Assembly: GCF_018687635.1 (NCBI RefSeq)
Contig: NZ_CP061300.1
Coordinates: forward strand, 1,571,424-1,635,423
Length of the DNA stretch: 64,000 nt
Source of the DNA: Polynucleobacter sp. MWH-Braz-FAM2G
Lineage (GTDB): Bacteria; Pseudomonadota; Gammaproteobacteria; Burkholderiales; Burkholderiaceae
Direction of reading: 5' to 3'
Each line of letters starts with the position of its first letter. Positions within the stretch are counted from its first letter, which is position 1. The notes under the pieces are model-generated. The model searched no databases. It was given only the letters and a program-made list of their open reading frames with translations, and was not told the origin of the DNA. Shown piece by piece: positions 15,745-42,700 of this stretch. Position numbers and translations under genes: made by a program.

Positions 15745-15930
15745 AGGGGCCCCCTCTGTTCTGGACCTGAGAGATTCATAAGCTGAGAAGCTTACTTGCT
15801 CCTTCGGTGTTATTAAGCGACGAAGTCTCAATAACTCTTCAGAGTGTAAAAATCATTTCGGTTCTTTTGCCTGAGAGTTTCCGGGGCGGTTGCTCCTTCG
15901 GCGCTGTAAAAACAGTCTCTCCCGAGAATG
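15745..15930 (-). promoter_or_regulatory. Tandem glycine riboswitch
   Basis: Read on the minus strand, two aptamers lie in series. Aptamer 1 (~15927-15861) has CGGGAGAGAC, then GCGCCGAAGGAGCAA, then AACTCTCAGGC. Aptamer 2 (~15845-15755) has a GAGAC segment, ACACCGAAGGAGCAA and ATCTCTCAGGTCC. These are the conserved blocks of glycine aptamers, and the tandem layout with a short linker is classic. A GC-rich segment just downstream (15721-15755) may be the expression platform. It lies 45 bases before dadA and in the same direction. Start and end are approximate. Confidence 0.95.
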
Positions 15931-15956
15931 ATTAAGCAAATCTTAACACTAAACCT

Positions 15957-34622: not shown

Positions 34623-34946
34623 TTATGTAGATGATTTAGCAATAAAGAATGCTCTGGGAACTGGCGTACACCACACTACACCATCGCCCATTTGCCCCGT
34701 CTGACAAATAGACACAATCTTATCCATTAGTGAAGGGGCAAGTTCTGCGTTACAAACAATTTCTATGCGTACTTTTGCAGAATAGTCTGTCAGCTCATCT
34801 TTAATATTGGTCTTGCCTTGCTTTGAGGGTGCACTACAACCCTCAACTTTGCATACAGTCATCCCCGGAAAACCTGGCGTCTCCATTAAAGCCGCTCTTA
34901 GAGCGGGTAATTTATTTGGGCGAATCACCGCTTTGACTTCCATCAT
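34623..34946 (-). CDS. PII-like protein linked to metal efflux (PII-NG type)
   Basis: 107 residues with the ferredoxin-like PII fold: MMEVKAVIRPNKLPALRAAL, KVRIEIVCNAELAPSLMDKIV and a B-loop TGQMGDGVVWCTPVPRA. Canonical GlnB has GDGK and a T-loop with uridylylated Tyr51; here the lysine is replaced by valine and the T-loop reads CSAPSKQGKTNIKDE without that tyrosine, so classic nitrogen control is unlikely. The ATG overlaps the RND pump stop codon (ATGA). A PII subgroup encoded beside heavy-metal RND pumps is known; the ligand and target are not. Two cysteines at ~32 and 37 could bind metal. Confidence 0.85.
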   Translation of the reverse strand: MMEVKAVIRPNKLPALRAALMETPGFPGMTVCKVEGCSAPSKQGKTNIKDELTDYSAKVRIEIVCNAELAPSLMDKIVSICQTGQMGDGVVWCTPVPRAFFIAKSST

Positions 34947-37900
34947 GCTTCCACCTCTTTCTCTTCAAACCATCTATACAGGACTGGCAAGACTAATAAC
35001 GTTAGGGCTGTTGATGTAACCAAACCCGCAATTACAACAGCAGCGAGTGGGCGAGTAACCTCTGATCCAGGGCCACCTGAAAACAACATTGGAACCAATG
35101 CAAGCATTGCAACTGAGGCTGTCATCATGACTGGTCTAAAGCGATGTCCGCAACCATGCAGTAAGGCGTCCTCCATGCTGTAACCATCTTCACGCAATTG
35201 TTTAATAAACGAAATCAGCACCACACCATTAAGTACAGCAATACCCCATAAATTAATGAACCCTACTGCCGCAGGAACAGAAAGATACTCGCCGGTAATA
35301 AATAATCCAAACACTCCGCCAATAGAAGCAAATGGCAGAACTAAGATGATGAGGCCCGCCAAACGAATTGACTTGAACAACATAAACAGCAAGAAGAAAA
35401 TTGCCAAGATAGTTAGAGGAATAATAATCATCAGGCGCGCCATGGCCCTTTGCATGTTTTCAAACTGACCGCCCCATTGCAAGGTATAACCCTGAGGTAA
35501 TTCAACATTCTTAGCTATTAAATCCTGCGCCTCTTGCACAAAGCCACCCAAGTCACGCCCTTCAACATTCACGCCAACCACCAAACGCCTTCTACCCGAT
35601 TCGCGTGAGATTTGTGCGGGCCCCTCAATTAGGGTGATTTCTGCCAAATCTCGCAATAACACCTGCGCGCCATCTGGAGAATGCAGAATAATATTTTCAA
35701 TTGCGTCAATGTTGTTTCTGTAAGAGCTTGGATAACGCAGAACCAATGGGAAGCGTCGCTCTCCCTCATAAATAGTACTTGCCTGCTTACCGCCAATTGC
35801 AGTTTCAATAACCTCATTTACATCGGAAACATTGATACCGTAACGAGCAATGGCATCGCGATCTATTTTGATATTAAGATAGTTTTGTCCAGAAGCTTGC
35901 TCAATCCGCAAGTCATTACTTCCCTTCATTTTGGTAAGAATTTGTCCAATTTGCGAACCTAGCTTTTGCAAAACAGCTAGATCTTCACCGAAGATTTTGA
36001 CAGCTACTTGAGAGCGAACTCCAGAAACCATTTCGTCGACACGAGCAACAATCGGCTGAGAAATTGCCAACTCGATTCCAGGCAAGGTTTTTAGTTTTTC
36101 GCGAATTTGCTGTGCAATCTCTTCCTGACTTAGATCCCTATCTCCAAGAGGTTTGAGTGTAACGATAGGATCTGATTCATTTGGCTGGCCAGGATCTGCA
36201 GGTGATTCGCCTTTACCGAGTCTAGAGACCGCCATCTCCACTCCCGGAATAGTCATGATGCGTTTAATAGCTTCAAACTCTAATTTGATCGATTCATCTA
36301 AAGAGATATTTGGTGCTCGCACAATCACGGGCGTAATTGAACCTTCTTGCATCACTGGTATAAAGGCCTTACCCAACAAAACAAATCCAACTAAGCTAAT
36401 ACCCAAAGCAATCAGTGATCTCTTAACAACTAATTTTGGGTTTTCTAGACTCCAATGCAACCAACGTTCGTAAGGTGCGCGTAACTTTTTAACTACCTTG
36501 GTATCGTCCTCACTGCCGCCCTTCAAAATGTAAGAACACAAGACAGGGGACAAGGTGAAGGACAAAATCAAGGAGATTGTTAAGGCAATGGCAATCGTAA
36601 TAGCCATAGGGGCAAACATTTTCCCCTCCATACCCTCAAGTGATAGCAAGGGCATGAAAACCAAAATAATGATGCCAACACCGAACAATACAGGCTTCCC
36701 AACTTCTGATGCTGCCTCTAAGATAATACGGTTCTTAGACTCTCCCGCCTTCAAGCGCTCCCCAAGTTTGGCAAAGGTATTTTCCACTACCACTACGGAG
36801 CCATCTACCATGATGCCGATTGCGATAGCAAGCCCACCTAAGGACATCAAGTTAGCAGAAATACCATAGCGATTCATGACCAAGAAGGTGAGTAATGGCG
36901 TTAGCAACAGGGTTGCGACCACAATCAATGATGAACGCACATCGCCTAAAAATAAGAACAATAAAATGATGACGAGTATGACGCCTTCAATCAGCACCTT
37001 TGCCACATTAAACATCGCAGCATTTACGAGATCAGTGCGATCGTAGAATGGCACAATTTGCAGGCCATCAGGCAATAACTTGCCGCCATTTATCTCCGCT
37101 ACTTTTAGCTTAATGCGATTGACCACATCTCGCGCATTGCCGCCACGAATCATCTGTACGATGCCAGCAACACTCTCGGTATCACCATTTTTGATTGCGG
37201 CGCCTTGTCGAATCTCGCTTCCTATAGAGACTTCAGCTACGTTTTTCACATATACCGGAATGCCCTTTACTTCTTTCAAAATAATCTTGCCGATGTCCTC
37301 TGGCTTATTGATCAATCCGAGCCCACGAATCAGATATCGCTCAGCGTAACTTGGTAATTGACCTCCCCCTGAATTGGCATTGTTTCGAGCAAGAGCTTGA
37401 TAGACTTCATGCAGACTAATTTGATAATGTCGCAGACGTTCTGGATTGACCAGCACTTGATACTCTCTTGCATAACCTCCTTGGGTATTAATTTCGGCAA
37501 CGCCAGGAATGGATCGCAACATGGGTCGCACAATCCAGTCTTGTACTGCGCGACGCTCTGAAAGTTCATCAACAGATAGCTCACGATGACGATCGGATGG
37601 GTGATCTAGGGTGTACTGATATATTTCACCTAAGCCAGTAGATGGAGGCGCCAAGACAGGCGTTATGCCCAGCGGCATCTTTGAAGCAACTTCAATTAAT
37701 CGCTCCGTAACCAATTGCCGAGCAAAATAAATATCAGTCTTTTCTGTAAACACCAAAGTGATTACAGAAATTCCGTTGCGATTAAGAGAACGCATCTCCG
37801 TTAAGCCGGGTAATCCGGTCATCCCCAATTCGATTGGAATTGTGACAAAACGTTCTACCTCTTCAGGCGATTTACCAGGAGCTTCTGCCGCTACCTGAAC

Positions 37901-38038
37901 TTGCACATTAGTTACATCCGGAAATGCATCAACGGAAAGTCTTTTGGTAGCCAATAAACCGGCAACTAGTAGCACTATGGCAATAATTACCACCAGCAAA
38001 CGCTGCTGTAGAGAAAGACGAACGATTCTTTCAATCAT
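34943..38038 (-). CDS. Heavy-metal efflux RND transporter (CzcA/CusA family)
   Basis: 1031 residues, full-length HME-RND pump with twelve membrane helices and two large periplasmic loops. MIERIVRLSLQQRLLVVI starts it and DAFPDVTNVQVQV is typical. The key helix-4 motif at 399-420 reads SLGGLAIAIG then DGSVVVVEN; it lacks the DFG of zinc/cobalt CzcA and the methionines of CusA and looks like the less-studied HME3 type. It moves metal ions outward using protons. Order on the strand is outer channel, adaptor, pump, PII-like protein, all overlapping or within 5 bases. The manganese-type riboswitch in the leader suggests the metal may be Mn2+ or another ion sensed by that RNA. Confidence 0.93.
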   Translation of the reverse strand: MIERIVRLSLQQRLLVVIIAIVLLVAGLLATKRLSVDAFPDVTNVQVQVAAEAPGKSPEEVERFVTIPIELGMTGLPGLTEMRSLNRNGISVITLVFTEKTDIYFARQLVTERLIEVASKMPLGITPVLAPPSTGLGEIYQYTLDHPSDRHRELSVDELSERRAVQDWIVRPMLRSIPGVAEINTQGGYAREYQVLVNPERLRHYQISLHEVYQALARNNANSGGGQLPSYAERYLIRGLGLINKPEDIGKIILKEVKGIPVYVKNVAEVSIGSEIRQGAAIKNGDTESVAGIVQMIRGGNARDVVNRIKLKVAEINGGKLLPDGLQIVPFYDRTDLVNAAMFNVAKVLIEGVILVIILLFLFLGDVRSSLIVVATLLLTPLLTFLVMNRYGISANLMSLGGLAIAIGIMVDGSVVVVENTFAKLGERLKAGESKNRIILEAASEVGKPVLFGVGIIILVFMPLLSLEGMEGKMFAPMAITIAIALTISLILSFTLSPVLCSYILKGGSEDDTKVVKKLRAPYERWLHWSLENPKLVVKRSLIALGISLVGFVLLGKAFIPVMQEGSITPVIVRAPNISLDESIKLEFEAIKRIMTIPGVEMAVSRLGKGESPADPGQPNESDPIVTLKPLGDRDLSQEEIAQQIREKLKTLPGIELAISQPIVARVDEMVSGVRSQVAVKIFGEDLAVLQKLGSQIGQILTKMKGSNDLRIEQASGQNYLNIKIDRDAIARYGINVSDVNEVIETAIGGKQASTIYEGERRFPLVLRYPSSYRNNIDAIENIILHSPDGAQVLLRDLAEITLIEGPAQISRESGRRRLVVGVNVEGRDLGGFVQEAQDLIAKNVELPQGYTLQWGGQFENMQRAMARLMIIIPLTILAIFFLLFMLFKSIRLAGLIILVLPFASIGGVFGLFITGEYLSVPAAVGFINLWGIAVLNGVVLISFIKQLREDGYSMEDALLHGCGHRFRPVMMTASVAMLALVPMLFSGGPGSEVTRPLAAVVIAGLVTSTALTLLVLPVLYRWFEEKEVEA

Positions 38039-38043
38039 GTCAC

Positions 38044-39390
38044 TTATCCACCACTCAGCTGACGTTTACGTTCAGTATTCAAATGGTATGCACCTTCCGT
38101 GGCAATTTCTTGACCCTCTTTTAATCCTGAGATAACTGGGCGATACCCTCTTCCTTCCGGACCAAGCTTAACCGGAACCATGCGATACATATCATCATCC
38201 AGCCTAATAAATACGTGGTCATGATTGTCTTCGCGAACTACAGCACCCACTGGCACAACCAATTTTTCGATTGGCTGACTTTCAATGAGCATTGTCGCCA
38301 ACATGCCGGGCTTAATTTGCCCCTCTTTATTGGATAATTCCATGCGAACCACGACAGTGCGAGTTTGTGGATTTACTATGGAATCCACGTGAGCAACAAC
38401 CCCTTCTATCTGCTGATTACGAAGCGCAGGAATGATTACATATGCTTTTTGACCCTTGCGAATAAGATAAGAGTTGCTTTCGGGTACCTCAGAAATAGCC
38501 CATAAAGTACTTAAGTCAGCCACAGTAAATAATGCATCTGCAGGCTGTACAACCTGGCCTTTATTAATTTTTCTCTCTACTATCTCACCCGGAATCGTAG
38601 CAATAACATTATTAATGGATTCAATCAAACCAGACTTAGCCAAGCGATTAATGCTGGCTTGATCCATGCCTTGCACTCGCAACTGATCATTGGCAGCACG
38701 AAACTCTGCTCTAGCGCTACTAGACTCAGCTTCGCGTTTTTGCAGCTCAGCCAATGCAATCACATCTTCTTTGTAAAGAATTTTTGCCCGATTAGCCGCT
38801 TGATCAGCTAATTGACTCGCACTCTTCGCCTTTAAGTAAGCCAATTGAGATTGAGTTAACTCTGTTGATGTAATTTTTGCTAACACATCGCCCTGCTTCA
38901 CCATCTGTCCAGGTACCGCCAAAATATCTGAAACACGACCAGTGACGTTTGCACCAATCCGCGAAAGAAATAGCTCATTAAAGTCAACTCTTCCAGACGC
39001 ACGCAATTCCTCAACAAATGGGGATATTTGCGCCTTTCCATCTGCAATCATTTTGTGCAAATCCTCGTTAACTACTACCACGTTCGGATCTTGAACGGAC
39101 TTAATGACGGGATTTCGATCGAATACATTGAAATAATTCAAGGTAATAAAAAGGATCACCGCCCATGGTAAGTAAAGCAATCCCTTTTTTAACCAATGCG
39201 GGCTGGCATCGTAACGTCTAGTTACAGATGGAGCCCGACTAGCAAGCCAATCATGAGCGCCTTGATAAAACTTATTTTGAGTTTGAATAATTTGCTCTAA
39301 ATATTCCTTTGAGTGATATCTCACCTTATTTAACAAAGAAACCACTCTTGGTCTCAGCTCCGCTATGAAATCTATAAATTCTTGTTTCAT
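38044..39390 (-). CDS. RND efflux periplasmic adaptor (CzcB-like)
   Basis: 448 residues from the ATG at 39390, which overlaps the outer-membrane channel stop as ATGA; the open frame extends 10 codons upstream but that would be inside the previous gene. A membrane anchor lies near residues 60-85 (LLYLPWAVILFITLNYF), preceded by an unusually long basic cytoplasmic N-terminus. The barrel-sandwich domain follows (GRVSDILAVPGQMVKQGDVLAKI), with a helical hairpin and KLVVPVGAVVREDNHDHVFI at the membrane-proximal part. It bridges pump and channel. No His- or Met-rich metal-binding extension is seen. Confidence 0.92.
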   Translation of the reverse strand: MKQEFIDFIAELRPRVVSLLNKVRYHSKEYLEQIIQTQNKFYQGAHDWLASRAPSVTRRYDASPHWLKKGLLYLPWAVILFITLNYFNVFDRNPVIKSVQDPNVVVVNEDLHKMIADGKAQISPFVEELRASGRVDFNELFLSRIGANVTGRVSDILAVPGQMVKQGDVLAKITSTELTQSQLAYLKAKSASQLADQAANRAKILYKEDVIALAELQKREAESSSARAEFRAANDQLRVQGMDQASINRLAKSGLIESINNVIATIPGEIVERKINKGQVVQPADALFTVADLSTLWAISEVPESNSYLIRKGQKAYVIIPALRNQQIEGVVAHVDSIVNPQTRTVVVRMELSNKEGQIKPGMLATMLIESQPIEKLVVPVGAVVREDNHDHVFIRLDDDMYRMVPVKLGPEGRGYRPVISGLKEGQEIATEGAYHLNTERKRQLSGG

Positions 39391-40658
39391 TGCATTCCAC
39401 TTTCTATCTTTGCAAGCCATTCGGGACTCGCTCTTAATCTTTGAATCTCGGTAACTACAGAAGCTAAATCAAAACGTGCCTTAATTAAATCGTTTCTTGC
39501 TGCCCGAAAGGTTCTTTGCGCATCCAAATATTCCAACATTCCGCGCTCCCCATAGCGATATGACACCTCCGCTATGCGCTGCGCAGTTGCGGCGAGCTGA
39601 ACCACCTCTTGGTCCAGGACCTTTACTTGATAGGTGGCTATTTGATATAGCTTGTAAGCAGTCTCAAGCTGTTGCTCTAGACTTTGACTTTGTGCATTCA
39701 GTTGATTTTTTGCCTTTGATGCATTGGCTTCTGCTTCAGCAATTTGACCGCCCCTAAAATCCCATATTGGAATGCTAATTTGCAAACCATACAGTCGATC
39801 CGTAAAGTTTGGATCGTTATATTGAGATGCCTTAAAAGCCAAACGCGGTAATCGAGCATTTTTCTCAAAGCTCAATTTTGATTCGCTAGCCTCTACATCA
39901 GCCTTAGCCTTTTGTAACTCAGGGCTTTGTGATTGAAGCTCAGTCAATAAAATATTTAGTGGTGGCAATGTCTCGGTCTTTGGCTGCTCAGGCACTACTG
40001 AAAAATGTGGCGGCAAGGTATGGCCAACAGTTTGGCGTAATTGACTGCGGGCCTGTTCAACCCTTAATTTTCCAGACTCTGCGGCAATCTGGGCATTTAA
40101 AAACTCAGTCTGAGATCTAATTAGATCGAAGCGTGCCGTTTCTCCAACGTCATACCTCACCTGCATTCGATCACGTATTTGCTTGGTTAAGTTCAAATCC
40201 TCTTCAAAAGCCTTTGCTTCAGCCTCACGGCGCATTAATTCATAAAAACGTTGTTGAACTTTTGAAATCGTCTCCACTTCAAAAGCAATACGAGTTGCCT
40301 CGGCCGAACGAAAGTTGGCTTCCGCTGCGTTTACTCTTGGAAAACGGGTGTAAGGCATATCCAGAGGTTGAGTCACCGCCCACGAAGAGACATTGCCAAC
40401 AGTAAGAGGTCCTGTTACTGAACGCTGTTGACCTGTGCCAATTTCAAATTCGGGATTGGGAATTGCACGTGCCGCAGAAAGCTGGCCTTTGATGGCTTTT
40501 GATTGATCTCGTGCAGCCAACACCTGAGGGCTTGACTCAAGGGCAATAGTGATTAAATCATTGATCGTATAAGACTTTTGAGTTTGCGCAAATACATTGG
40601 TAGTGAGAACACTACCAATCGCAATAACCGCCAACAAGCGATGCAACTTCATGTGCAT
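39387..40658 (-). CDS. TolC-family outer membrane efflux channel (CzcC-like)
   Basis: 423 residues if started at the ATG at 40658, giving a clean signal peptide (MHMKLHRLLAVIAIGSVLTTNVFAQ). The frame is open to 40793, but that 45-residue extension has no signal-peptide logic and overlaps a hairpin-plus-T-run in the riboswitch leader, so I reject it. The body has the duplicated long helices of outer membrane efflux proteins (ARDQSKAIKGQLSAARAIPNPEFEIGTG, then RFDLIRSQTEFLNAQ). It gives the pump an exit through the outer membrane. No strong ribosome site is seen, which may matter for control by the leader. Confidence 0.88.
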   Translation of the reverse strand: MHMKLHRLLAVIAIGSVLTTNVFAQTQKSYTINDLITIALESSPQVLAARDQSKAIKGQLSAARAIPNPEFEIGTGQQRSVTGPLTVGNVSSWAVTQPLDMPYTRFPRVNAAEANFRSAEATRIAFEVETISKVQQRFYELMRREAEAKAFEEDLNLTKQIRDRMQVRYDVGETARFDLIRSQTEFLNAQIAAESGKLRVEQARSQLRQTVGHTLPPHFSVVPEQPKTETLPPLNILLTELQSQSPELQKAKADVEASESKLSFEKNARLPRLAFKASQYNDPNFTDRLYGLQISIPIWDFRGGQIAEAEANASKAKNQLNAQSQSLEQQLETAYKLYQIATYQVKVLDQEVVQLAATAQRIAEVSYRYGERGMLEYLDAQRTFRAARNDLIKARFDLASVVTEIQRLRASPEWLAKIESGMQ

Positions 40659-40717
40659 TGAATTTAAATGTATCAGTTTTGAATTATCCCAATTTTTTGC
40701 ACGAAATAAAAACTTAC

Positions 40718-40734
40718 CGCCCCAATTAAGGGCG
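40718..40734 (-). terminator. Possible leader terminator in RND operon
   Basis: On the minus strand CGCCC pairs with GGGCG around a 7-base loop, with a T5 run a few bases after (GTAAGTTTTTATTT). It lies between the riboswitch aptamer and the outer-channel start, the right place for an attenuator. The stem is short, so this is tentative. Confidence 0.5.
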
Positions 40735-40804
40735 AATAAGCAGAAACAATTACCTGAATACGGGAATAGGTGTGAGTTATTCAATTTAGCCATTTATTAA
40801 AAAA

Positions 40805-40905
40805 TTAAATGGTCTTGCCCTAACGCATTACCTATATACCGGACTTAATAGTCGTAATGACGATATATAAGACCCATTTCTGGGCAGGCTACTCCCCGTT
40901 TATTA
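40805..40905 (-). promoter_or_regulatory. yybP-ykoY (manganese) riboswitch aptamer
   Basis: Read on the minus strand, the region begins AAACGGGGAGTAGCC and ends AGGGCAAGACCATTTAA about 85 bases later. GGGGAGUAGC and GCAAGACC are the two conserved blocks of the yybP-ykoY family, and they pair to form the basal helix (one C-A mismatch). The inner part can form two arms, one being GCCC-AGAAAU-GGGU. The family binds Mn2+ and usually switches on exporters such as MntP or TerC-type proteins. Here the next gene on the strand is the RND channel-adaptor-pump-PII operon. Assigned by eye; no covariance search was made. Confidence 0.8.
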
Positions 40906-40907
40906 AT

Positions 40908-40937
40908 CTATTAGATCATAGTTATGTGTCGTTTCAA
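40908..40937 (-). promoter_or_regulatory. Candidate promoter of the RND operon
   Basis: On the minus strand TTGAAA (40937-40932) is followed after 18 bases by TAATAG (40913-40908). It is just upstream of the riboswitch and downstream of the previous gene's stop, so transcription would begin at the aptamer's 5' edge. Weak match, supported by position. Confidence 0.4.
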
Positions 40938-40946
40938 TAATTCGTA

Positions 40947-41279
40947 TCAAGCATGCACTTGCTTTGATAATCTTCCGTACTTTTGGGCCTTATGAAATAT
41001 CTTTTGCACGTGTTTGTAAACTCTTTTTAGGCCCATATCTAGAGCCGTTCTTTTATCTCTTGCCGTCACACTCACTTCAATCTGTTGATGGTCAAATGTT
41101 TGGAACTCAATCAAGCAATTTTGGTTGCATCCCGTTTTAGATTGATGAACCAGTGAATAACTTACCTTAATCTTTCGCACCAACCAAAATAAACGCTTAA
41201 GCGAGCATTTCACCTTATTTTCAGTAAATGTCTTTAATTCTGGTTCATCCAGCTCTTTAGGGTTCAAGATCACATCCAT
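40947..41279 (-). CDS. HPF/RaiA-like ribosome-associated protein (putative)
   Basis: 110 residues from the ATG at 41279, which has a GGAG site 7 bases before it; the frame is open for 17 more codons without signal. It reads MDVILNPKELDEPELKTFTENKVKCSLKR, a basic beta-strand region with KIKVSYSLV, then IEVSVTARDKRTALDMGLKRVYKHVQKIFHK. This order, ending in a helix that crosses the ribosome face in HPF, resembles hibernation factors or the sigma-54 modulation domain, but sequence signals are weak. Many lysines and arginines support RNA binding. Monocistronic, before the riboswitch-led operon. Confidence 0.55.
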   Translation of the reverse strand: MDVILNPKELDEPELKTFTENKVKCSLKRLFWLVRKIKVSYSLVHQSKTGCNQNCLIEFQTFDHQQIEVSVTARDKRTALDMGLKRVYKHVQKIFHKAQKYGRLSKQVHA

Positions 41280-41395
41280 ACTTAATCTCCTTTTTGAAAC
41301 ATCTTGAAACCAATATAGAAGCAATATCATTCTTAATAAAGCAGATAATATTTGAATTTAATTCTGATATTTACTGATATTTATTTTAAAAAATA

Positions 41396-41434: not shown

Positions 41435-42700
41435 TTAATCAAGCACTGCTGCTACAAGAGCGGTTGCCGCGCCAGCACCAATCGCAGGGATACCCCAACG
41501 CTCTAGAGTTGATACCGACTGCCCAGTAACAACCTCAACTGGTATATCGCTGATTTCCAGTAATTTTGCAGTAGTTGAATTTTCAAATAAACGACTTAGG
41601 ATATTTTTCTTTGAAGTTCCAATCACAATGCGCTCACACATCAAACGTTGCGCCTCATCTCGCAATGCCTCCCCTTTATCACCAACGACGTATGTAAAGG
41701 AGTAACTAACACCCTTCTTCTCTAAAAATTTTGAAGCCGATACCGCCGCCTTTTTTGCACGCTCAGCTTGCCACTCACCAATCGTCTGCTTGTTGAAAAA
41801 TTTTCCAATATGCCTATAAATGGTAGGTTGCACATTGCACAAATGAAAATGCACCTGCTCTTTACCATATACATTGACAGCATGTTTTAAGGCCATCATA
41901 GAATTTTTTGAACCATCAACTGGAATTAGAACTTTAGTCATCGCCTCATCTCCTTCATTAAAAGACTGCACGCTAGATTTAAATTCGTATGGAGTAGTCT
42001 CAACCGTAGCCAGCGAATTGCTCTCTTCGGTCACAAACCTACCCTTCATATAGCCACTGATTAACACCCCAAAAATAACAACCGCTTGAACGCCGTATTC
42101 AATAATCGGGTTTTGAAATAGTTGCAGTTTCTGCACTACTGGTTCGCCAATCATCATCTTTGCTGCGGTCCACGCTAGCACTCCCGCCCCTAAATAAGTG
42201 ATAGATGGAAAACGCTCTACCAACTTGAGAATTTGGGTTGAACCCCAAATAACGACAGGAATACTAATTAACAAACCCAACACTACCAACACATAACTTC
42301 CATGCGAGGCTCCTGCTACAGCCAAAACATTATCTAAACCCATCACAGCATCAGCAATCACAATCGTCTTCATTGCTCCCCAAAAACTTGTGGAGGCATG
42401 ATCGTGACTTCCATCGCCCTCATTTTCTGGGGTTAAAAGCTTGTAAGCAATCCACAGCAGCAATAAGCCTCCGACCAACATCAAGCCTGGAATCTTTAGT
42501 AGATACACAACGGCTAAGGTCATCGCACTCCTTACCGCTATCGCTCCGACCGCACCCCAAACAATCGCCTTCTTTTGGAGATGAGTTGGCAAGTTTCTTG
42601 CTGCCATCGCAATCACAATGGCATTATCTCCAGCCAAAACCAAATCGATGACGACGATTGCAAGCAATGCTGAAAAAAACTCAGGACTAAATAGTTCCAA
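41435..42700 (-). CDS. TerC/YjbE-family membrane protein fused to a universal stress (UspA) domain
   Basis: 421 residues. Residues 1-220 form a TerC/YjbE domain with seven to eight helices and two acidic motifs, AGDNAIV (23-29) and MGLDNVLAVAG (120-130). After a polar linker (221-252) a UspA domain begins at Met254 (MTKVLIPVDGSKNSMMALKHAV) and runs to ~395 with ERIVIGTSKKNILSRLF; a last small helix (AIGAGAATALVAAVLD) closes the chain. TerC-type proteins are linked to Mn2+ export and membrane-protein metalation. UspA at this place would sense nucleotides or stress. The internal Met has its own AAGGAG, so a separate UspA product is possible. Confidence 0.88.
   Translation of the reverse strand: MELFSPEFFSALLAIVVIDLVLAGDNAIVIAMAARNLPTHLQKKAIVWGAVGAIAVRSAMTLAVVYLLKIPGLMLVGGLLLLWIAYKLLTPENEGDGSHDHASTSFWGAMKTIVIADAVMGLDNVLAVAGASHGSYVLVVLGLLISIPVVIWGSTQILKLVERFPSITYLGAGVLAWTAAKMMIGEPVVQKLQLFQNPIIEYGVQAVVIFGVLISGYMKGRFVTEESNSLATVETTPYEFKSSVQSFNEGDEAMTKVLIPVDGSKNSMMALKHAVNVYGKEQVHFHLCNVQPTIYRHIGKFFNKQTIGEWQAERAKKAAVSASKFLEKKGVSYSFTYVVGDKGEALRDEAQRLMCERIVIGTSKKNILSRLFENSTTAKLLEISDIPVEVVTGQSVSTLERWGIPAIGAGAATALVAAVLD
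41939..41955 (-). promoter_or_regulatory. Internal ribosome binding site and ATG inside TerC-UspA gene
   Basis: On the minus strand AAGGAG (41955-41950) stands 8 bases before an in-frame ATG (41941-41939) exactly at the start of the UspA domain. It is a better ribosome site than many true starts in this window. Suggests a second, soluble UspA product of 168 residues, or the relic of a former separate gene. Confidence 0.6.

Follow-up and report, generated by a model that had tools for sequence, protein, structure and literature searches.

The locus described here raises the question of which metal is carried by an efflux pump whose genes stand behind a predicted manganese riboswitch. It lies in a stretch of 64,000 nucleotides (the window, whose numbering is used throughout) of contig NZ_CP061300.1 from the freshwater bacterium Polynucleobacter sp. 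MWH-Braz-FAM2G, the genome of which is a single contig of 2.17 Mb, and consists of a CzcCBA-type operon of the heavy metal efflux resistance-nodulation-division (HME-RND) family with a terminal gene for a PII-like protein, preceded by an RNA element of the yybP-ykoY (RF00080) type. All features given below are on the minus strand. For many pumps of the HME-RND family no substrate has, to our knowledge, been assigned, nor a function for the PII-like proteins whose genes accompany them. Unassigned substrates and PII-like roles of this kind are illustrated in parts of PMC7726332 and PMC7060636. A metal-type-specific RNA in front of an HME-RND operon points to the probable metal and opens the question of cargo to experiment, and the value of the finding is this cargo prediction. 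By its alignment and position the element appears to be a real, conserved riboswitch of the manganese type in a gene setting that we have not found described, and we consider it likely that it switches on the operon in response to Mn2+ and that the pump exports manganese.

The aptamer and its conservation

The initial annotation had placed two conserved yybP-ykoY blocks some 85 bases apart in the leader, and both are there: GGGGAGTAGC at 40897-40888 and GCAAGACC at 40818-40811, with 79 bases from start to start and 87 overall. The RF00080 search of the leader that it had proposed gave a match significant by E-value, which spans 40774-40909 and scores 21.5 bits (E 4.6e-4 when 401 bases were scanned against all families), and in a single-family scan of the 2.17-Mb genome this was the sole match, at E 5.6e-4. 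Taken alone, the RF00080 score is suggestive only. On the basis of this match, of covariation and of the position before czcC, the aptamer was assigned to 40806-40902. It comprises the P1.1 helix (40902-40896 with 40812-40806), the L1 sequence GGGGAGTAG (40897-40889) with its partner 3' block GGCAAGACC (40819-40811), P2 (40885-40872), P3 (40871-40831), whose loop L3 reads CGTCATTACG, and P4 (40830-40821). The L3 adenosine at 40858 is equivalent to the one that contacts Mn2+ in Lactococcus lactis (A41) and Xanthomonas oryzae (A48), as described in part of PMC6754395, and it is invariant in all 42 sequences compared below (A50 of the first row).

A first alignment of 15 aptamers from the czcC side, that of the window included, and six from the TerC side had as its consensus a four-way junction with compensatory change in 11 of 26 pairs, and was the basis of a model, R1, that consequently contains the window's own sequence. 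R1 scored 98.8 bits on the window site, and 101.3 (L038), 100.8 (L036), 92.5 (L041) and 83.9 bits (L072) on relatives outside the model. Covariation was assessed in an alignment, A3, of 42 czcC-side rows, which omits L034 (near-identical to L033, with one leader difference) and the decayed L057 and L068, and takes L024, L026, L028 and L031 from the first locus set. The conserved blocks, GGGGAGUAG in L1 and GGCAAGACC in the 3' strand, are both present in the window and nearly invariant in these sequences, L1 deviating in L042. The four-way junction and the switch hairpin described below carry double-sided changes in 17 of 34 pairs, against a shuffle mean of 13.1, with 1 of 500 shuffles reaching this value; 94.6% of the cells are paired (86.7% in shuffles), 147 cells have a double-sided change (shuffle mean 52.7) and the covariation score is 0.343 (shuffle mean 0.195), none of the 500 shuffles being as high in any of these three measures. 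Shuffles break kinship and versions slid along the alignment preserve it; with the structure slid by 1-3 columns the covariation score was 0.04-0.12, a comparison to be discounted to some degree since the tested structure was partly derived from the same sequences and tends to beat slid versions. Junction helices 1 to 5 are each 89.9-98.6% paired with at least one double-changed pair, and the junction P1-P4 is kept through compensatory changes. By its motifs and alignment the window aptamer is thus a divergent member of the yybP-ykoY (RF00080) class. A subgroup of five loci (L066, L067, L069, L070 and L078) is set apart by a P3 loop of greater length and by ATG codons that stand 13-15 bases past GACC.

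Occurrence within and outside the genus

With a limit of E <= 1, RF00080 had matches in 45 of the 151 genomes searched within the genus. The 30 loci returned stand before GDT1-type genes (8), TerC-family genes (6) and czcC (15), the thirtieth, L030, having been set aside as a likely chance match from the look of its sequence; the family checks in these contexts covered one GDT1-type and one TerC-side protein. In the six TerC loci (L011-L013, L015, L016 and L018) the aptamers are of the same sub-branch as those before czcC. A search of named genomes for czcC with six peptide patterns, not an exhaustive one, yielded 48 loci, Polynucleobacter being closest, together with beta-proteobacterial metagenome-assembled genomes and one record titled Thermoflexus. 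R1 matched upstream of czcC in 40 of these 48 loci as well as in the window. Two of the remaining eight, L076 and L079, start within czcC and hold no upstream sequence, and in L046, L064, L071, L073, L074 and L075 R1 had no match before czcC. Among the 40, aptamers that look decayed stand before the czc operons of L057 (5726-5847; 18.8 bits) and L068 (5762-5859; 26.2 bits), and to judge from these two copies the riboswitch has been lost in some species.

Across the 151 genomes, czcC was present in 70 (E <= 1e-80) and R1 in 68 (E <= 0.001), and 58 of the 70 czcC genomes have a same-strand R1 match within 1300 bases upstream of the gene; viewed from the other side, 58 of the 71 R1 matches in the genus sit there. 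The conservation in related genomes that the initial annotation had proposed to check is therefore found, and the covariation, together with this conserved position, speaks for the riboswitch class and the target operon as assigned. Several of the records L032-L079 are the same genomes as these, so the counts 40/48 and 58/70 are not additive. Three cases apart (G107, G102 and the second piece of G116), the aptamer lies 35-207 bases from the czcC match. The czcC copies of G102, G107 and G116 hold stops, yet the upstream aptamer still matches, and in L077 czcC and czcA seem disrupted while the aptamer before them still matches.

Outside the genus the picture is a different one. R1 matched in 198 of 398 Burkholderiaceae genomes, and in 20 such regions fetched outside the genus there was no match to CzcA, CzcB or CzcC, by which RND control is ruled out for those 20; a GDT1-type query matched in two of them, and by sight the first gene is MntP-like in ten and Na/Ca-exchanger-like in eight, one protein of each of these two kinds having been family-checked. 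In a scan of the phylum at E <= 1e-4, in which the genus itself was negative, RF00080 matched in 126 of 398 genomes. The first recognised gene, by which is meant the first same-strand downstream match to ten query proteins (intervening genes of other families would not show), was at 136 places of GDT1 type in 97, of MntP type in 28, of Na/Ca-exchanger type in 10 and absent in one (L230), and in none of the 136 was it an RND gene. Its start lies at a median of 323 bases into the stretch and never beyond 871; of the 136 stretches, 30 extend only about 1.5 kb downstream. At L260 the start of an MntP gene is followed, about 2.6 kb further on, by a CzcA-like match of 26%.

In the order, czcC was found in 86 of 349 genomes (E <= 1e-30). 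Among 30 czc loci fetched, the aptamer is present solely in the window's own locus and one other of the same genus: R1 found none at 28 related czc operons outside the genus, and an Rfam scan of 16 of these 28 returned no RF00080. The 28 loci rule out the aptamer as a general trait of this class of operon. The pairing of a yybP-ykoY riboswitch with an RND operon, as first suggested from the window, thus holds here but is not general; in the samples examined it is confined to this genus, and the pump family, on the same counts, ranges wider than its riboswitch. In a tree of the aptamers (about 90 bases, no support values shown) those of the czc and TerC sides form a group apart from those of the GDT1 side; from this grouping, TerC and czc loci within the genus would seem to have shared the switch.

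Putative promoter, candidate start codons and terminator-like hairpin in the leader

A putative promoter precedes the aptamer at 40910-40937, with a -35 sequence TTGAAA (40937-40932), a spacer of 16 bases and an extended -10 sequence TG-A-TCTAAT (40918-40910); the transcription start site is expected near 40903. The initial annotation had noted a possible promoter here, and of 39 leaders 30 have exactly TGATCTAAT and the other nine variants of it, although a consensus scan, which demands A at the second position of the -10 sequence, listed none. The set of 39 leaders omits L057 and L068, and the reading frame was judged in 36 of them (L042, L056 and L077 excluded).

At the 3' end of the aptamer, CCATTTA and TAAATGG can form a hairpin (40790-40812) that is mutually exclusive with P1.1 and covers the presumed ribosome-binding region. 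A hairpin that uses the 3' strand of P1.1 (here CCAUUUA with UAAAUGG) folds in 41 of the 42 sequences, with three pairs only in L072 and none in L043, the L065/L024 group using other partners; in the alignment this helix 6 is 93.0% paired, its pairs being mostly unvaried and one double-changed. The P1.1 helix itself is weak across the sequences, from -0.1 to -4.9 kcal/mol, with the competing hairpin present. Candidate starts of czcC are an ATG inside the hairpin (40793-40791) and a TTG at a conserved site (40784-40782): an in-frame UUG (25) or GUG (3) stands 21-28 nucleotides past GACC, directly after the hairpin, in 28 of the 36 leaders. The eight that depart are L043, L044, L066, L067, L069, L070, L072 and L078, seven of them with an ATG at 13-17 and L044 with none there. 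The czcC frame is open from at most 44 bases past GACC in all 36 leaders, and in L041 and L045 a signal-peptide-like sequence starts, by eye, at the conserved UUG; in the window such a part begins at a later in-gene ATG of czcC (40658).

About 43 bases behind the UUG, within the presumably translated leader, a terminator-like hairpin begins. The short hairpin with a T-run that the initial annotation had seen at 40718-40734 is real, at 40735-40717 followed by TAAGTTTTTA, and can be extended to a stem at 40741-40712 of -15.1 kcal/mol, the whole element with its T-run spanning 40705-40741; it is one of two terminator-like sites in the 421 bases scanned, where shuffled sequences had 0.3 on average. 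Further on, a GATAAT motif (40683-40688) lies 96 nucleotides past the UUG/GUG and is found in 24 of 37 leaders with constant spacing; 22 of the 23 listed leaders with GATAAT match the pattern CCC-N4-8-GGG. It is possible that GATAAT is the -10 sequence of a second promoter independent of the riboswitch. A CCCC..GGGG palindrome lies upstream of GATAAT in leaders, and the two may perhaps represent a second promoter with an operator, or RNA elements. By eye, the motif also stands in L046, L057, L064 and L068, which have lost the aptamer or hold a decayed one.

The 24 leaders that carry GATAAT all have 96 bases from the start to the motif and no stop in the czcC frame, the other two frames having 59 and 36. 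The mean entropy of the leader extension by codon position is 1.08, 1.11 and 1.13 as compared with 0.25, 0.11 and 1.38 in the CzcC core, and on this near-even distribution a strongly constrained part of the protein was rejected, against which speaks some excess at third positions among the differences of close pairs (132, 144 and 182). The simplest reading of these figures would be that the leader is translated and that its peptide is of little importance.

The switch strand pairs with the region before the conserved UUG/GUG start, for which reason we favor a translational ON switch, probably backed by an intrinsic terminator within the translated leader; the terminator shares no strand with P1.1, so that coupling through translation fits better. 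The hairpin taken at first as a possible attenuator is therefore probably not a plain one, given that the P1.1 strand pairs with sequence before the start. In the proposed mechanism transcription would start just 5' of the aptamer. In the absence of Mn2+, CCAUUUA and UAAAUGG would pair and so hide the ribosome-binding region next to the start codon of czcC, and the hairpin at 40741-40705 would terminate untranslated transcripts. When Mn2+ is present, docking of L1 and L3 would stabilize P1.1, which would capture the CCAUUUA strand; from the freed start, ribosomes would trail the polymerase through the leader and keep the terminator from forming, so that the channel, the adaptor, the pump and the PII-like protein would be made, and the pump would export manganese or a metal that mimics it. 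Somewhat more tentatively, it is possible that in this way a manganese riboswitch governs a full tripartite pump spanning both membranes, that the freed UUG lets ribosomes override the terminator, and that the aptamer shares its source with the TerC-side one or came from it.

The operon, the cargo of the pump and comparison with known systems

Domain matches confirm the genes for a channel, an adaptor, a pump and a PII-like protein that had been read from the sequence downstream of the leader. The czcC-like gene for the outer-membrane channel runs from 39387 to 40784 or 40793 (PF02321, 8.6e-45), followed by a czcB-like gene for the periplasmic adaptor (38044-39390; PF16576, 1.7e-55, and TIGR00999, 7.6e-49, the latter below its cut-off), the czcA-like gene (34943-38038) and the gene for the PII-like protein (34623-34946; PF00543, 49.5 bits with a cut-off of 25). 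Overlaps of 4 bases join czcC to czcB, if czcB starts at 39390, and czcA to the PII-like gene. CzcA belongs to the HME-RND (CusA/CzcA) family by TIGR00914 (1109.7 bits against a cut-off of 701.45), and its nearest solved chains by sequence are ZneA (4k0e) and then CusA. Its transmembrane helix (TMH) IV reads AIGIMVDGSVVVVEN (pattern AIG..VDGS..VEN) and departs from DFG-X3-DGA-X3-VEN, the TMH IV signature by which HME1 and HME2 are defined in a portion of PMC3637150. Searched with a pattern that fixed part of the motif beforehand, the relatives had 43 matches, of which 38 agree in these letters and five read AVG; in an alignment with CusA there were no obvious equivalents of the HME4 (Cu/Ag) methionine ligands at the positions assumed for CusA. 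By these comparisons the metal of the pump cannot be read from the CzcA sequence. The PII-like protein is below the NCBIfam equivalog cut-offs for GlnB/GlnK, and its gene follows czcA in all 38 loci that include the end of czcA, which fits the neighborhood of PII-NG beside RND genes.

Upstream of the aptamer lie a TerC gene (41435-42700), whose product ends in a Usp domain, and, between TerC and the aptamer, a gene for 112 amino acids (40947-41285) with no Pfam or NCBIfam match, which by eye we take to resemble a ribosome hibernation factor; each was counted by eye upstream in 30 of the 48 loci. L155, which belongs to a different family of the order, likewise has a TerC match (49%) beside czcCBA. 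The genome has no match to MntP, one GDT1 gene without the aptamer, and for Nramp a match below the cut-off only, and by these searches the czc operon is the only one found in it under control of the RF00080 type. Elsewhere in the window, a single glycine riboswitch aptamer (64.1 bits) is located at 15849-15935.

The manganese reading starts from what the sequences display, namely the aptamer, its conservation and position, the exclusive helices, the start-codon site and the open leader frame; Mn2+ binding, the ON direction, translation-coupled termination and Mn2+ as cargo would have to be added to these. Several points weigh against it. The aptamer misses the RF00080 gathering score of 45 bits, its significance being by E-value alone; it was not listed by an Rfam scan of the whole window with a maximum E of 5, and its own genome (G000) was negative for RF00080 in the genus and phylum scans, which used a stricter filter. 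In the covariation test, further pair types (46 against 41.9 in shuffles, 7 of 500 as high) are barely above expectation. P1.1 carries a C.A mismatch in the window and folds with -1.4 kcal/mol, whereas the rival hairpin reaches -3.9; a strong Shine-Dalgarno sequence is not to be seen, and the terminator, good in the window, is weak or absent in several relatives. One of the 58 genomes with the aptamer before czcC, G061, holds a decayed copy (26.2 bits). In 12 of the 70 czcC genomes the aptamer was not found before czcC, and the pump can thus run without the riboswitch; the 12 include G002 and G024, where a strong aptamer stands on the GDT1 side, and G028, G041 and G084, where one stands on the TerC side. 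Finally, the PII-NG/czcABC system of Geobacter sulfurreducens is induced by cobalt and tied to Fur, and no riboswitch is mentioned in the available part of its description (PMC7726332).

The cobalt induction in Geobacter, the 28 operons of the order without an aptamer and the 12 genomes just mentioned favor a reading in which the switch answers manganese and the cargo is another metal, such as Co, Ni, Zn or Fe, tied to manganese overload. GDT1 is linked to manganese export. A gene of GDT1, MntP or Na/Ca-exchanger type is the first one recognised behind RF00080 at 135 of the 136 phylum places, passages of PMC8546581 and PMC11647493 connect the BP3410-type exchanger and MntP with manganese export, and in the present genome, lacking an MntP match and with its GDT1 gene free of the aptamer, the czc operon alone was found under such control. 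We therefore regard another cargo as rather unlikely, and the retention of the aptamer before the pump in most of the sampled relatives that bear it suggests that manganese is exported. If so, RND pumps would join MntP, GDT1/MneA, the Na/Ca-exchanger type and TerC among manganese exporters, providing a manganese route across both membranes. Pumps of the cation diffusion facilitator (CDF) and P-type classes are also among manganese exporters.

Unlikely, too, is a transcriptional platform in which Mn2+ directly prevents the terminator at 40741-40705. The window does hold a good intrinsic terminator, and in L. lactis P1.1 directly prevents the terminator, this antitermination being the mode described in part of PMC11087558. 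Here, however, no sequence is common to the terminator and the P1.1 strand, which leaves no direct block by P1.1; the partner of that strand lies in the start region, and besides the relatives with a weak or absent terminator, the hairpin pattern is missing from the short leaders L041 and L045. A drift of the aptamer toward another ion, for instance Ca2+ or Cd2+, might explain the low RF00080 score and an L3 unlike that of better known members (CGUCAUUACG), and a streptococcal yybP-ykoY member is tied to Ca2+ efflux (PMC9495176, in part); the invariant L3 adenosine, the nearly invariant L1 and the genus L3 variants (CGUCAAUUCG), which resemble the L. lactis loop UCAAUUC in the part of PMC6754395 available, make it improbable. 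A chance resemblance or a functionless decayed relic, in line with a score below the gathering score and the decayed copies of L057 and L068, is contradicted for the genus by covariation and conservation across dozens of species and is very improbable, a chance match having been rejected on the 42 sequences and the placement before czcC in 58 of the 70 genomes.

A search of the literature found, among the matches listed, no report of the riboswitch-RND pairing, although the gene tables of Dambach 2015 and Price 2015 may still list one. The NiCo (czcD) riboswitch is a metal riboswitch before a heavy-metal exporter. It belongs to a different RNA class and stands before a different exporter family, and it had no match in the 401-base leader scan or in the whole-window scan at the E-values used; it is discussed in part of PMC7689651. 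In Geobacter sulfurreducens, as in the window, a PII-domain gene shares an operon with an HME-RND system, according to the same portion of PMC7726332. With the E. coli mntP riboswitch, in which Mn2+ frees translation and thereby partly lifts Rho termination, the system would share the logic in which the ligand frees the start and coupling suppresses termination, the differences being an intrinsic hairpin in the leader frame in place of Rho and a tripartite pump as the target (PMC11647493, in part). Bordetella pertussis is of the same order as the bacterium studied here. In its BP3410 riboswitch an RF00080 aptamer likewise precedes an exporter gene, as given in part of PMC8546581. In general, the aptamer resembles the yybP-ykoY riboswitches of L. 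lactis yoaB, X. oryzae and E. coli mntP and alx in its L1 and L3 sequences, its four-way junction, a weak candidate P1.1 switch helix and the invariant L3 adenosine, and like them it belongs to the 5' leader of a gene for a transporter. It differs from the known members in a short P4 and a low Rfam score, in a UUG/GUG start beside the switch hairpin with a translated leader that contains a terminator-like hairpin, and in its apparent target, a three-component RND operon with a PII-like gene.

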